A DNA stretch of 12,728 bases. It comes from Candidatus Sumerlaeota bacterium. GTDB taxonomy: Bacteria > Sumerlaeota > Sumerlaeia > JAFGJS01. The notes beneath the pieces are model-generated. The model was not told the DNA's origin. It saw only the letters and a list, made by a program, of their open reading frames with translations, and made no database searches. A program made the translations under genes and the position numbers. This document shows positions 5,506 through 12,329 of this stretch, piece by piece (the first letter of the stretch is position 1; the number at the start of each line of letters is the position of its first letter). The stretch spans positions 1 through 12,728 of the forward strand of contig JAFGJS010000101.1 in assembly GCA_016928995.1 (NCBI GenBank), written 5' to 3'.

Positions 5506-6329
5506 GGTTCAATGCGCCGATCTGTTTGATTTTCCACCTCGCTCAGATTCTGCAGCAATTGCGCATAAAAATCAAGCGGCTTTAAAGCACAGGCCGCCGC
5601 CGTCGGCATAAACAGCCAGTTCACCAATCCGATATGGTCCAGCGGCACGGTTCCCCGCCAGCCGCTCCAGCGCGCGGACTCCACCAGCACCAGCCCGTCG
5701 TTCGGACCGGGCTGCTCGCCTTTGCGCTTCAGGTATTCGTAAAACGGCAACAGCACCCAGTGCACCTCGCGCGCGCTTGGCTCGCCGGCGTAGGAAAAAT
5801 ATCGCACCGTCGGCGCGTCTGATGTTTCCGCGTTGAAGCGCTCCATCCGCTCCGGCATCAGGTCGCGGTGCCCGGCGAAGTACGCGTCCACGTATACGCG
5901 CCAGTTGCTCAGTTTGATTTTGAGCAGCGCATCGAGCAGCGGCCCGGCGATCATGTCCAGCGTAAGGTTGGCGATTGCGCTGCCGTGATGCGGCGTGCCC
6001 AGCGTGGTCAGCGAGGCCACGCGTTCCGCCCCGCCCAGCCGCGAGATATAATGCCGCGCATCCAGCCCGCCCATGCTGTGGGCGATGATGTGAATTTTCG
6101 GCGCGTCGATGTTCGCGTCGATGAAGCGCTTGAGCGCCTCGGCGCGCTCCGCGATGCTGCCCGTGCTGGGCACGCCGGGCGCGTATACCTGCTCCACGCC
6201 CAGCGACTTGTAATGCGCCTCGACGCCGTGGAAATATTCGATCCGCAGCGACATCGACTGCCATACGTCATACTGCATCGCCTCAAAGCCGCCCAGACCG
6301 TGAGCTAATAAAATGGGGTATTGAATCAT
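5502..6329 (-). CDS. Alpha/beta-hydrolase lipase (triacylglycerol lipase-like)
   Basis: The 275-residue protein has the bacterial lipase arrangement: an oxyanion-hole HGLGG (10-14) right after the N-terminus, the nucleophile elbow AHSMGG (83-88, Ser85), TLGTPHHGS (109-117), an acid in PNDGLV (Asp211) and a DH pair with His232. These complete a Ser-Asp-His triad as in Pseudomonas/Burkholderia-type true lipases. Unlike those secreted enzymes it starts directly at the first strand (MIQYPILLAHG) and has no signal peptide. It is therefore predicted to act in the cytoplasm, perhaps on membrane lipids or small esters, or to leave the cell by a leaderless route. It overlaps the upstream membrane-protein gene and the downstream amidohydrolase gene by four bases each (ATGA), which points to one transcript with coupled translation. 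No strong ribosome-binding site precedes its ATG. Confidence 0.88.
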   Translation of the reverse strand: MIQYPILLAHGLGGFEAMQYDVWQSMSLRIEYFHGVEAHYKSLGVEQVYAPGVPSTGSIAERAEALKRFIDANIDAPKIHIIAHSMGGLDARHYISRLGGAERVASLTTLGTPHHGSAIANLTLDMIAGPLLDALLKIKLSNWRVYVDAYFAGHRDLMPERMERFNAETSDAPTVRYFSYAGEPSAREVHWVLLPFYEYLKRKGEQPGPNDGLVLVESARWSGWRGTVPLDHIGLVNWLFMPTAAACALKPLDFYAQLLQNLSEVENQTDRRIEP

Positions 6330-7114
6330 AGTTTTGTCATCTGCTGTTCAAGTTTTTGAGTTATCAGGATTCCAATATATTTGGGCGCTAAAAAACAATA
6401 TCCGCCAAAAAAAATTAGTAGCAACATCAATACAAAAAGATCAGGAAGAAATCCCGGTATGATATCGATAAATAAAAATATACTGCAAAGGACATGCCAC
6501 GGCCATACGCCAATTATAATAATAAAAACTATACAGCAAAGACCTATGTTTTTTATATATTTATTCAGCATCCAGAAAACTGGATTAAATTGAATAATCC
6601 AGGGAAGAATGAAAAAGCAAAATATAATAGCATATTCTGTCAACCAGATCGGACCGAATGAATCGCCTATGATGTTGACGCTACTGGTTAAATTAGTCCC
6701 TAAAGCGATGAATAGGTGCAAGCCAAGATAGATTTTTTGCCGTTTTTCATTGTGGAACAGCATCGGCGCTAATATTTCGCGGTGTGTGACGGGCGTCAGG
6801 CTCAGTTGCACCAGCAGCTCTCTTTTCAGCCATTTTGATAGGATGTGCATGGTGTGCATTTTGGGGATGATGGCAAAGTATAGGCCGCAGGCGATAAACA
6901 GTCCGAATGAGCTCTGTAGCAGGATATTGGCATGTCGGCTGAAAATGGCGATGAGCAGAGCGCAGTATCCTACTATAGTTAGAATGACGCCCGATGTCTC
7001 GCTACGAAACCACCATGGCGAGCGTTTGCGCCGGTGCTTGAGCAATTCTTCGAGCGGTGAATTTTTCAGCGCGTCTTGCCAGGATTGCTGATCGGCGCTA
7101 GTGGGCGGAGTCAT
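6326..7114 (-). CDS. Six-helix membrane protein, possible ABC-2-type permease relative
   Basis: The 262-residue protein has a soluble, basic N-terminus (1-38) and about six hydrophobic segments (near 41-58, 65-83, 127-147, 157-176, 190-218 and 223-244). After the second helix comes QLSLTPVTHREILAP (103-117). This resembles the LTP(L/V)..REIL cytoplasmic motif of ABC-2-type permeases, so an export permease or its relative is my best guess; no partner ATPase lies beside it. The gene begins 7 bases after the folK stop without a well-spaced ribosome-binding site and overlaps the lipase start by four bases. Its 3' half (about 6330-6660) is markedly AT-rich compared with all neighbours, suggesting recent acquisition or weak constraint. 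The function remains unknown. Confidence 0.72.
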   Translation of the reverse strand: MTPPTSADQQSWQDALKNSPLEELLKHRRKRSPWWFRSETSGVILTIVGYCALLIAIFSRHANILLQSSFGLFIACGLYFAIIPKMHTMHILSKWLKRELLVQLSLTPVTHREILAPMLFHNEKRQKIYLGLHLFIALGTNLTSSVNIIGDSFGPIWLTEYAIIFCFFILPWIIQFNPVFWMLNKYIKNIGLCCIVFIIIIGVWPWHVLCSIFLFIDIIPGFLPDLFVLMLLLIFFGGYCFLAPKYIGILITQKLEQQMTKL

Positions 7115-9146: not shown

Positions 9147-9172
9147 TAAAGATAAGGCAACCAAAAATATTC

Positions 9173-9198
9173 GACAGGATTAACAGGATATGCAGGAT
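9173..9198. repeat. 9-nt-periodic CAGGAT repeat, left arm of inverted pair
   Basis: CAGGAT occurs at 9175, 9184 and 9193, exactly nine bases apart, within GACAGGATTAACAGGAT and the bases after it. TTTTT follows. A diverged copy lies inverted at 9269-9292. From memory, very similar CAGGATTAACAGGAT strings are scattered through intergenic regions of many unrelated bacteria, so this is probably a dispersed repeat and not a gene-specific operator. Confidence 0.7.
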
Positions 9199-9225
9199 TT
9201 TTCAGTAAAGAAATAATACGTAACT

Positions 9226-9241
9226 CAGATTGGAAAATCTG
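9226..9241. other. Small hairpin between the repeat arms
   Basis: CAGATT (9226-9231) and AATCTG (9236-9241) form a perfect 6-bp stem with loop GGAA. On the + strand TTTTAT follows, giving a weak terminator-like shape. It lies in the AT-rich spacer between the two inverted repeat arms upstream of fetA. Confidence 0.35.
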
Positions 9242-9268
9242 TTTTATAACTCAACAGCGTTTTTTTGC

Positions 9269-9292
9269 ATCTTGTTTATCCTGTTCATCCCG
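9269..9292. repeat. 9-nt-periodic CAGGAT repeat, right arm (inverted)
   Basis: On the minus strand the units CGGGAT, CAGGAT and CAAGAT follow each other at nine-base spacing (complements at 9287, 9278 and 9269). They lie just downstream of the nadK stop and are preceded on that strand by a T-run. The arm is a diverged, inverted counterpart of 9173-9198. Confidence 0.65.
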
Positions 9293-9303
9293 TCAAAAAA
9301 AAA

Positions 9304-10032
9304 TCAATCCATCGGGCGGCCGGCGACGACGCATTGTTTGCAGCGTAGCGCGTCGAGACCGAGGATCGTGTACGGCTCCTCGGCCATGCCGATCTCCAGC
9401 CGGTCGTTTTCGTGCAGTTCCCACTGCTCCGGATCATTATCGGCCAATAGCAGCGCCGGACCGCGCGTGATCTGCACCGACAGCCGGTCCGCCACGTCCA
9501 GCACGGCCCACTCCACTGGCTCGACCGAATTCACGATCGCCAGCCCCAGTCCGGCCTTGAACGTGCCGCGCGTGATCGAACGGAAGTACGCCGTGGAGCC
9601 GAACGGCGTGGCCACGACCAATCCGTCGCCGATGATCTCATGCGGCACGTAGAGCTCGCCGTTCACCGAAAGATAAAAGCGCGTGGCCGACGCCGGATTC
9701 GCCATGTGCAGGCCGACCTCGTTCACCGCGAGTTTCACGTGATCCTTCCAGCGCATTTGGACTTTACGCAGCACAGAGCGCTCCAGCGCGCCGGACTTCA
9801 GCCGCTCCAGGATCGCCTGCGTCTCGTGCCTGGGGCACTTCACGCAATTATGATCGTTGCGGATGGGAACCTTGGGGATGCCGGGAAAATCGCGTTCCGC
9901 GCCGATCAGCGTGCCGTCGCCGCCATGGCAGATCATCACGTCCGCCTGATCGGGCGGCGCGATCTCGATGCCGGTCTGCTCCATCGCGGCTCGTAAATTC
10001 GCCACGTCCTGTCCTATGATATGCACCTTCAT
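9304..10032 (-). CDS. nadK: NAD kinase
   Basis: The 242-residue protein has the NAD kinase motifs: GGDGT (37-41) with the catalytic Asp, the NE pair (104-105, LAVNEV), and DGLVVATPFGSTAY (136-149), the glycine-rich nucleotide-binding segment. It phosphorylates NAD to NADP in the cytoplasm. Between GGDGT and NE lies an unusual stretch, KVPIRNDHNCVKC (54-66), in place of the common GINLGRLGFL. It contains a CxxC (63/66), and a second CxxC (231/234, CKQC) sits near the C-terminus. This pattern suggests a divergent NAD kinase branch with a possible structural metal site. ATG 10032 has an excellent ribosome-binding site (AGGAG, 8 bases upstream) and a promoter 35-64 bases upstream. A longer frame to GTG 10056 would swallow the ribosome-binding site and is rejected. 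It is divergent from the acyltransferase gene. Confidence 0.88.
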   Translation of the reverse strand: MKVHIIGQDVANLRAAMEQTGIEIAPPDQADVMICHGGDGTLIGAERDFPGIPKVPIRNDHNCVKCPRHETQAILERLKSGALERSVLRKVQMRWKDHVKLAVNEVGLHMANPASATRFYLSVNGELYVPHEIIGDGLVVATPFGSTAYFRSITRGTFKAGLGLAIVNSVEPVEWAVLDVADRLSVQITRGPALLLADNDPEQWELHENDRLEIGMAEEPYTILGLDALRCKQCVVAGRPMD

Positions 10033-10127
10033 GCCGCTCGCTCCTGTGATGCACACAATGCCTGCAATCTTGACGCCAATGCGCAGCGCTTGTCAATCGC
10101 GCTTCCCACCCGCTGGAATTTTCTTCT
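9986..10127. repeat. Direct repeat copy A: nadK start and divergent control region
   Basis: This stretch is repeated in the same orientation at 11454-11595. Bases 10034-10084 are identical to 11502-11552 (51 consecutive matches by eye). Similarity continues with scattered mismatches on both sides, into the first 16 or so nadK codons on one side and to about 10127 on the other. A single-base indel lies between the nadK ATG and its ribosome-binding site. Copy A controls the intact nadK and acyltransferase genes. Confidence 0.85.
10067..10096 (-). promoter_or_regulatory. Sigma-70-like promoter of nadK
   Basis: On the minus strand TTGACA (10096-10091), a perfect -35 box, is followed after 18 bases by CAAGAT (10072-10067), which keeps the three most conserved -10 positions (A2, A5, T6). 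The boxes lie 35-64 bases before the nadK ATG. The same bases form a TTGAC-N17-GTCAA dyad (10070-10096) that could be an operator. The whole element is conserved exactly in the second repeat copy. Confidence 0.55.
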
Positions 10128-10155
10128 TCACATTCCCTTCGAAGACCGTTATAAA
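10127..10155 (+). promoter_or_regulatory. Sigma-70-like promoter of the acyltransferase gene
   Basis: TTCACA (10127-10132; 5 of 6 to consensus), a 17-base spacer and TATAAA (10150-10155; 5 of 6) make a good sigma-70 promoter, 45 bases before the TTG start at 10201. In repeat copy B the corresponding bases have diverged and neither box survives. Confidence 0.55.
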
Positions 10156-10200
10156 CGTTTTTCTGCATACTCAAGAAGTACAAATCGTTGGAGCCTTGTT

Positions 10201-11445
10201 TTGACCAATATCCCTGCGTTGACGGCGTTGCGATTTCTAGCGGCGCTGGCGGTTTTTTTACATCACTGGCTTTCGCTGGACGGGCATCTCTTCTGGGGCG
10301 ATGATTTCATCCTGGTCGTCCATGAAAATCCAATCTTGCGCTTAATGTGGGAGGGTCGTTTCGGGGTCACTCTTTTTTTCGCACTCTCCGGCTTTCTACT
10401 CACCGTGTGTCATTACGGCGATTTTAACAAAAAGAGCGGCTGGGGCCGGTTTTTTCTCAAGCGCGCGGCGCGCATTCTGCCGTTGTACTTCTTTCTGCTG
10501 GCGCTGCTTTTTCTGCTCCACATCGCCATGCAAAGACATTATCACCTGCCGATGGACCGCTACTTCGTTTATGCCACGCTGACCCAGGCGTTCTTCGCCG
10601 ATCTAAAGTTCAACGGCATGGAGACCGCCTGGTCGCTGACCGTGGAATGGTGTTTTTATCTCACGCTGCCCATGATGATCCTGATGTTGCGCCGCATTTG
10701 GCGTGACGACGCAGGGCTGGCGCGCAACTTGAGCCTGTCTACTGTGGCGCTGTTTCTTATCGGTCTGATTTTGTTGCTGATTGGCACAATGCTAAGGCGG
10801 CAGGAAGTTTTCACGCTATGGGGCTTTATGGAGACCGTGCAGGATTGGCGGTCATACACCTATTTCGGCCGCTTTTACGACTTCGCCTTTGGCATGATCG
10901 CCGGAATGATCTACATTAAATCCGGCAACCGCTGGCTTCGTCGTCCGCCGCTTGCCGACGCAGCTGTGGCGGCAAGCAGCGCCGGCATTTTGATTTTGTG
11001 CTATCTCTCGTATGGGCTGGGCGGCATCGAAACGTACCATGGCTGGCTCTTGAATTTGCCCGGCGCGCTGCTCAGCGCTGTGTTCATCTACTTTCTCTGC
11101 TGTCGTGAAGGCCGCATTTCACGCGTGTTGAGCTGGAAACCGTTCGTCTACCTCGGTCAGATTTCCTTTGCGCTATACCTGATTCACAAATGGGATTTCA
11201 CCAACTGGATCTATAAGAAACTCGCCGCGACCGACATCCCGGCGATTGTCTCGATACTTGCATTATACGTTTTCTTTTCCTTGGTTTCCGCCGCGCTATA
11301 CGAACTCATTGAGCGTCCCGGACAATGGTGGGTTTTACGCATGGCAGGCGGACGCCGCAACGCCCGGCCGCCTTGGGCCATCCGCCGCTTTCGCGAATGG
11401 CGCGGCCTTCCAGCGCCTGCCGAGGCCGAAGCGCCGTTGGGGTGA
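10201..11445 (+). CDS. Acyltransferase 3 family membrane protein
   Basis: The 414-residue protein is an integral-membrane O-acyltransferase of the acyltransferase 3 (OafA/NodX-like) family. It begins with ALTALRFLAALAVFLHHW, carrying the family Arg (11) and the catalytic-region His (21/22). Next come FFALSGFLL (59-67), FLKRAARILPLYFF (85-98), WSLTVEWCFY (144-153), ISFALYLIHK (321-330) and ELIERP (368-373). About ten hydrophobic segments span the chain. Such proteins acylate cell-surface polysaccharides, lipopolysaccharide or secondary metabolites; the substrate here is unknown. I chose TTG 10201 because GGAG lies 7 bases upstream and a promoter lies 45 bases upstream; no ATG fits. The last 30 residues (from about 382) are Arg/Pro-rich, unlike the core. 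They end just before repeat copy B, so the 3' end may have been altered by the duplication junction. Confidence 0.9.
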   Translation: MTNIPALTALRFLAALAVFLHHWLSLDGHLFWGDDFILVVHENPILRLMWEGRFGVTLFFALSGFLLTVCHYGDFNKKSGWGRFFLKRAARILPLYFFLLALLFLLHIAMQRHYHLPMDRYFVYATLTQAFFADLKFNGMETAWSLTVEWCFYLTLPMMILMLRRIWRDDAGLARNLSLSTVALFLIGLILLLIGTMLRRQEVFTLWGFMETVQDWRSYTYFGRFYDFAFGMIAGMIYIKSGNRWLRRPPLADAAVAASSAGILILCYLSYGLGGIETYHGWLLNLPGALLSAVFIYFLCCREGRISRVLSWKPFVYLGQISFALYLIHKWDFTNWIYKKLAATDIPAIVSILALYVFFSLVSAALYELIERPGQWWVLRMAGGRRNARPPWAIRRFREWRGLPAPAEAEAPLG

Positions 11446-11453
11446 TTGTTCCG

Positions 11454-11501
11454 CGCGCCGCGCAGCTTCGCCGCGTCCTGTCCCACGATATGGGTTTTCA
11501 T
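11454..11501 (-). pseudogene. Truncated nadK 5' remnant
   Basis: From ATG 11501 the minus strand encodes MKTHIVGQDAAKLRGA, which aligns with the NAD kinase start MKVHIIGQDVANLRAA. Ten of 16 residues are identical, and the differences are mostly conservative. Similarity ends abruptly after this point; the frame continues antisense to the acyltransferase gene without GGDGT or any other kinase motif. The remnant still has its ribosome-binding site and promoter. It is best read as the leftover 5' end of a second nadK-like gene. Confidence 0.75.
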
Positions 11502-11595
11502 CCGCTCGCTCCTGTGATGCACACAATGCCTGCAATCTTGACGCCAATGCGCGGCGCTTGTCAATCGTGCTTCACGCCTGTTGGAATTTTCTTCG
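11454..11595. repeat. Direct repeat copy B: duplicated nadK control region
   Basis: This is a same-orientation copy of 9986-10127, offset by 1468-1469 bases, with 51 consecutive identical bases at 11502-11552. It keeps the nadK -35 box (complement of 11559-11564), the -10 box (complement of 11535-11540) and the AGGAG ribosome-binding site, but the promoter of the acyltransferase side is lost. It begins nine bases after the acyltransferase stop. Confidence 0.85.
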
Positions 11596-11726
11596 GCGCA
11601 ATCTCTCACCTCTGCCGGATAGAATTGGTTGGGGCGCATCTTGACTGCGCTACGCAATCAGTGCCGCGTCGGACTTGAAGCGTCAGCAAAGCATAAACCC
11701 CCTTCGCTCCAATGCTCTAAAATCTC

Positions 11727-12182: not shown

Positions 12183-12218
12183 TACTCGCGCTAACTGCTA
12201 TGAATTCCTATCGTGTGA

Positions 12219-12274
12219 GTCCCGGCAGGGACGGGACAATCGTAGCCCCGGATTTCAATCCGAGGCTACGATTG
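12219..12274. repeat. Compound palindrome (REP-like) upstream of ldhA
   Basis: Two dyads lie side by side. GTCCC/GGGAC (12219-12232) has a 4-base loop. The second is a 38-base near-perfect palindrome at 12237-12274: CAATCGTAGCC pairs with GGCTACGATTG, then after one C/A mismatch CGGATT pairs with AATCCG around a 2-base loop. There is no following T-run, so an intrinsic terminator is unlikely. The size, symmetry and intergenic location resemble REP elements mobilised by REP-associated tyrosine transposases; no such transposase is in this window. Confidence 0.7.
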
Positions 12275-12329
12275 TTGCGCCACTGCCGTGGTGTATACAA
12301 CGCGCGATCAAAACCGACCGAGGCGAATC

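Follow-up and report, generated by a model that had tools for sequence, protein, structure and literature searches.

The acyltransferase gene at positions 10201-11445 of the analysed window lies between two same-orientation copies of the start and leader of nadK. We read this structure as the scar of one recombination event, in which a circularised donor fragment integrated by a single crossover and thereby inserted the acyltransferase beside nadK, and we give this reading about an even chance. Directly observed are the repeat, its pattern of divergence, a truncated in-frame nadK start, no other copies of the element and a gene of atypical composition; the donor, the circle and the crossover are what we infer. 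The insertion would most likely represent an ordinary bacterial route to gene gain, an event of a known kind. The window is the entire contig 146 (12,728 nucleotides) of a draft Candidatus Sumerlaeota genome (4.5 Mb in 161 contigs, 92% completeness). The nearest genomes that we compared belong to the same class only, with NadK identity of at most 45-47%, and scanning NadK peptides against the genome contigs returned no close relative.

Geometry and conservation of the repeat

Copy 1 of the repeat (9985-10138, reverse strand) comprises nadK codons 1-16, the leader with its ribosome-binding site, a TTGACA hexamer and the upstream flank. Copy 2 (11454-11606, reverse strand) comprises codons 1-16 of a truncated second nadK allele, the leader and the upstream flank. 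Aligning the copies requires a single gap, of one base at 10033, and the two direct copies that the first-pass annotation had reported here are confirmed, with edges that shift by a few bases only. Within them lies an exact core of 51 bp (10034-10084, identical to 11502-11552, reverse strand in both cases), and no direct repeat in the window is longer; exact repeats in 100 base-shuffled windows reached 17 bp at most. Beyond the copy edges, no significant similarity between the flanks was detected.

Conservation is unevenly distributed along the copies. The leader (10034-10099), bounded by the start codon and the upstream edge of the TTGACA hexamer, is identical at 65/66 positions (one changed) vs. 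33/45 for nadK codons 2-16 (12 changed), a significantly higher conservation (Fisher p = 7e-5). This agrees with the earlier statement that the non-coding 51 bp are the best conserved part and that the nadK codons have diverged. In the 28 bp next upstream of the leader, 22 positions are identical and 6 are changed, and an A/T-rich block of 13 bp upstream of the core is likewise kept in both copies. The initial description of the structure as a duplicated promoter region holds for the leader, which is duplicated, but it is incomplete, as the right copy also contains in-frame nadK codons 1-16.

The core is present only twice in its own genome, also when up to three mismatches are allowed, and it is absent from 40 relatives. 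An exact 22-mer of the core is absent from ~85,000 species genomes and from viral contigs, and the repeat had no DNA match in the plasmid collection. With two genomic copies and none in the other genomes searched, the core is not a dispersed repeat, and it does not look like a mobile element. The first-pass annotation had named a widespread dispersed element as the finding that would speak against it, and our search recovered no copies beyond this locus.

The two nadK starts and the acyltransferase

The intact nadK (9304-10032, reverse strand) is the sole NAD kinase gene found in the genome: its product was the single family match in the 92% complete draft, and a search for a second full nadK elsewhere found none. 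The product matches Pfam NAD_kinase_C (E = 8e-7) and NCBIfam NAD kinase models (down to 8e-12, under those models' cut-offs). NadK matches were detected in 25 of the 39 class genomes (its own included), with relatives reaching 45-47% identity, and none of the window's other genes was a convincing conserved neighbour of nadK in the 19 class relatives with nadK. The nadK promoter would consist of a perfect TTGACA and a poor -10, and it was not called by the consensus scan. A conserved RNA element was considered and rejected, since the Rfam search gave no relevant match for the leader and shuffled sequence folds as well as the leader does.

Copy 2 reads MKTHIVGQDAAKLRGA in frame, compared with MKVHIIGQDVANLRAA in copy 1. 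Its likeness to nadK does not extend past about codon 16 and ends within a few bases of the stop codon of the acyltransferase (11443-11445); the nadK remnant begins at most 9 bp from that stop, and positions 11446-11453 form the junction between the stop codon and nadK codon 16. Because copy 2 carries codons 1-16 in frame, it represents a second nadK allele, truncated so that its 5′ end is left. Of the eight codons that differ between the copies, three are changed synonymously, and several of the amino-acid replacements are conservative. When 12 random substitutions were introduced into copy 1, with all changes thus put on copy 2, the resulting peptide was as similar to copy 1 in 0.2% of the trials, and a stop codon was present in 34%. 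Since random substitutions rarely leave so similar a peptide, this suggests that most of the codon divergence arose while both nadK copies were working genes. GC3 of the first 16 codons was uninformative as a marker of donor vs. resident, as many genes of the contig have a lower 5′ GC3.

The nadK remnant stays open as a fused frame of 96 residues (11211-11501), which overlaps the acyltransferase 3′ end in antisense orientation and has no family match. The truncated copy is probably without protein function, and a promoter retained on it would point antisense to the acyltransferase.

The bracketed gene (10201-11445, forward strand) has a full-length domain match to PF01757 (Acyl_transf_3; E = 2e-30, 106.4 bits), well above the curated cut-off of 31, and its start is most likely the TTG at 10201, which has GGAG upstream. 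This match places it in the acyltransferase 3 family, while no NCBIfam model matched that would assign a substrate or subfamily, so that a surface role is a guess. Its GC of 0.55 and GC3 of 0.69 compare with 0.61-0.66 and 0.74-0.84, respectively, in most neighbours. No second Acyl_transf_3 gene was found elsewhere in the draft (92% complete), so that this gene is the sole family member found. Its occurrence in the class is sporadic, with weak relatives in six other genomes; none of these lies beside nadK in the loci examined, and the plasmid collection contained no match. The atypical composition, the status as sole family member in the genome and the lack of close homologues in the class all fit acquisition, and the acyltransferase was probably acquired.

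Origin of the arrangement

The proposed donor fragment would have come from a related lineage and would have carried the first ~16 codons of nadK, the leader and a neighbouring, divergently oriented acyltransferase gene. On circularisation, nadK codon 16 would have been linked to the acyltransferase end, and one RecA-type crossover within the 51-66 bp of leader that were identical in donor and resident would have integrated the circle. The product would then read, in order, resident nadK, hybrid leader, donor acyltransferase, donor nadK 5′ fragment, hybrid leader and resident upstream flank. Under such a crossover the core would be identical because the exchange needs uninterrupted identity, perhaps aided by a constrained promoter and ribosome-binding site, and the sequence on either side would differ because donor is there compared with resident. 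In line with a single crossover, the insert is flanked by direct repeats of the target sequence, and the identity is exact over 51 bp, which is generally long enough for a RecA crossover. We note as a counterpoint that one edge of the core falls near the TTGACA hexamer and the other near the start codon, a placement also expected if the promoter or leader were under selection.

That constraint is central to the competing idea of a tandem duplication of nadK and its neighbour, after which most of the second nadK would have been lost and the leader kept in both copies by selection (copy 2 acting as a working promoter, e.g., of antisense or rightward transcripts) or by gene conversion. A constrained promoter would account for a high-identity core that reaches from the hexamer as far as the start codon, and for the A/T-rich 13-bp block kept upstream, and selection on the promoter may have contributed to the conservation of the core. 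For copy 2, a model of neutral decay in which leader and codons change at one rate and the total coding change is at most ~2x the leader change fits poorly with 1/66 vs. 12/45 changes (likelihood ratio 8.7, p about 0.003). The duplication would also need extra steps (the duplication itself, two losses, and selection or conversion). Moreover, no convincing acyltransferase remnant was found right of copy 2, where the best similarity was weak and was reached by 1/100 shuffles, and the leader shows neither an unusual RNA fold nor an Rfam match. We therefore consider a duplication with a selected or converted leader rather unlikely. Between the two origins first proposed, entry by homologous joining fits best given the atypical composition, the sole family member and the weak class relatives, while tandem duplication with neutral decay is disfavoured.

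The same final anatomy would be yielded by homology-facilitated illegitimate recombination of a linear donor, in which donor nadK and leader would anchor the left side by homology, the acyltransferase end would join resident codon 16 without homology, and the resident 5′ end would be the remnant. Such recombination has been described in competent bacteria and put forward to explain displaced effector genes in Vibrio (PMC5361080), and the junction seen here is abrupt. It usually deletes resident DNA, however (average ~1 kb; PMC3240628), it does not by itself explain an identity confined to the middle of the repeat, and its anchor crossover must fall inside or beyond nadK; we judge it unlikely, at a level similar to the duplication or slightly below. 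With regard to a chimeric assembly of strain variants, the draft state of the genome (161 contigs, 92% completeness) and a window that is a whole contig would allow for it, but the acyltransferase/nadK junction (11446-11453) has no shared sequence that could mislead an assembler and the core is on no alternative contig, which makes such an artefact very improbable.

A single crossover of a circularised donor has experimental counterparts. In a study of E. coli conjugation, single-crossover products were sequenced in which donor DNA was bounded by partial target duplications of 109-950 bp; such inserts made up most of the recombinants and were attributed to DNA that had been partly degraded, had recircularised and had then undergone a single crossover (PMC3240628). 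Our locus similarly has foreign DNA between short direct target duplications, here of about 150 bp. It differs in that the repeats are ~87% identical instead of being copies of one sequence, and in that the event is natural and neither parent is seen. To explain orphan-gene displacement in effector modules of Vibrio, homology-facilitated illegitimate recombination has been suggested (PMC5361080); our locus shares with that system an anchor of homology to one side of the insert, a join without homology to the other and a remnant of the old gene past the insert. In contrast to that system, no deletion is demonstrated here, and the housekeeping gene is complete, a 5′ end being all that is left over. 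The locus is a clean natural case of gene gain beside a housekeeping gene, whose scar preserves the probable substrate of the crossover as well as the non-homologous join, and it leaves the knowledge of nadK or of acyltransferases unchanged.

Switching and other features of the contig

Exact 51-bp direct repeats 1.47 kb apart could permit occasional RecA-dependent deletion, and the gene that they enclose encodes an Acyl_transf_3 protein, which is the basis for imagining that recombination of one core with the other could switch a surface modification reversibly on and off. We consider such a switch very unlikely: no recombinase gene was recognised beside the acyltransferase, the assembly holds two copies of the core only and no contig with the deleted junction, and the insertion alone already accounts for the repeat. 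The acyltransferase could in principle pop out, and this would follow from the scar rather than be evidence of a designed switch. A further reading is a two-layer control of cell-envelope modification, in which the right leader would be a working promoter firing antisense through the acyltransferase and the identical cores would let cells lose or regain the gene; we attach hardly any probability to it.

Other features of the contig lie outside the repeat. Just left of nadK, positions 9170-9297 hold a palindromic dispersed repeat (GACAGGATTAACAGGAT...) with 48 matches in the genome at up to three mismatches, several of them as facing pairs, compared with 0 for the reversed control pattern. A strong inverted repeat at 12218-12288 (GTAGCCCCGGATTTCAATCCGAGGCTAC) was compared with the Acido-Lenti-1 RNA, for which it remained below threshold (22.5 bits vs. 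37), and it occurred a single time in the genome with the pattern used. The open frame at 6326-7114 has no Pfam match; it is rich in hydrophobic residues, and its GC is 0.42 vs. 0.61-0.66 in its neighbours. Its product is probably a membrane protein, and it is possibly another acquired gene.
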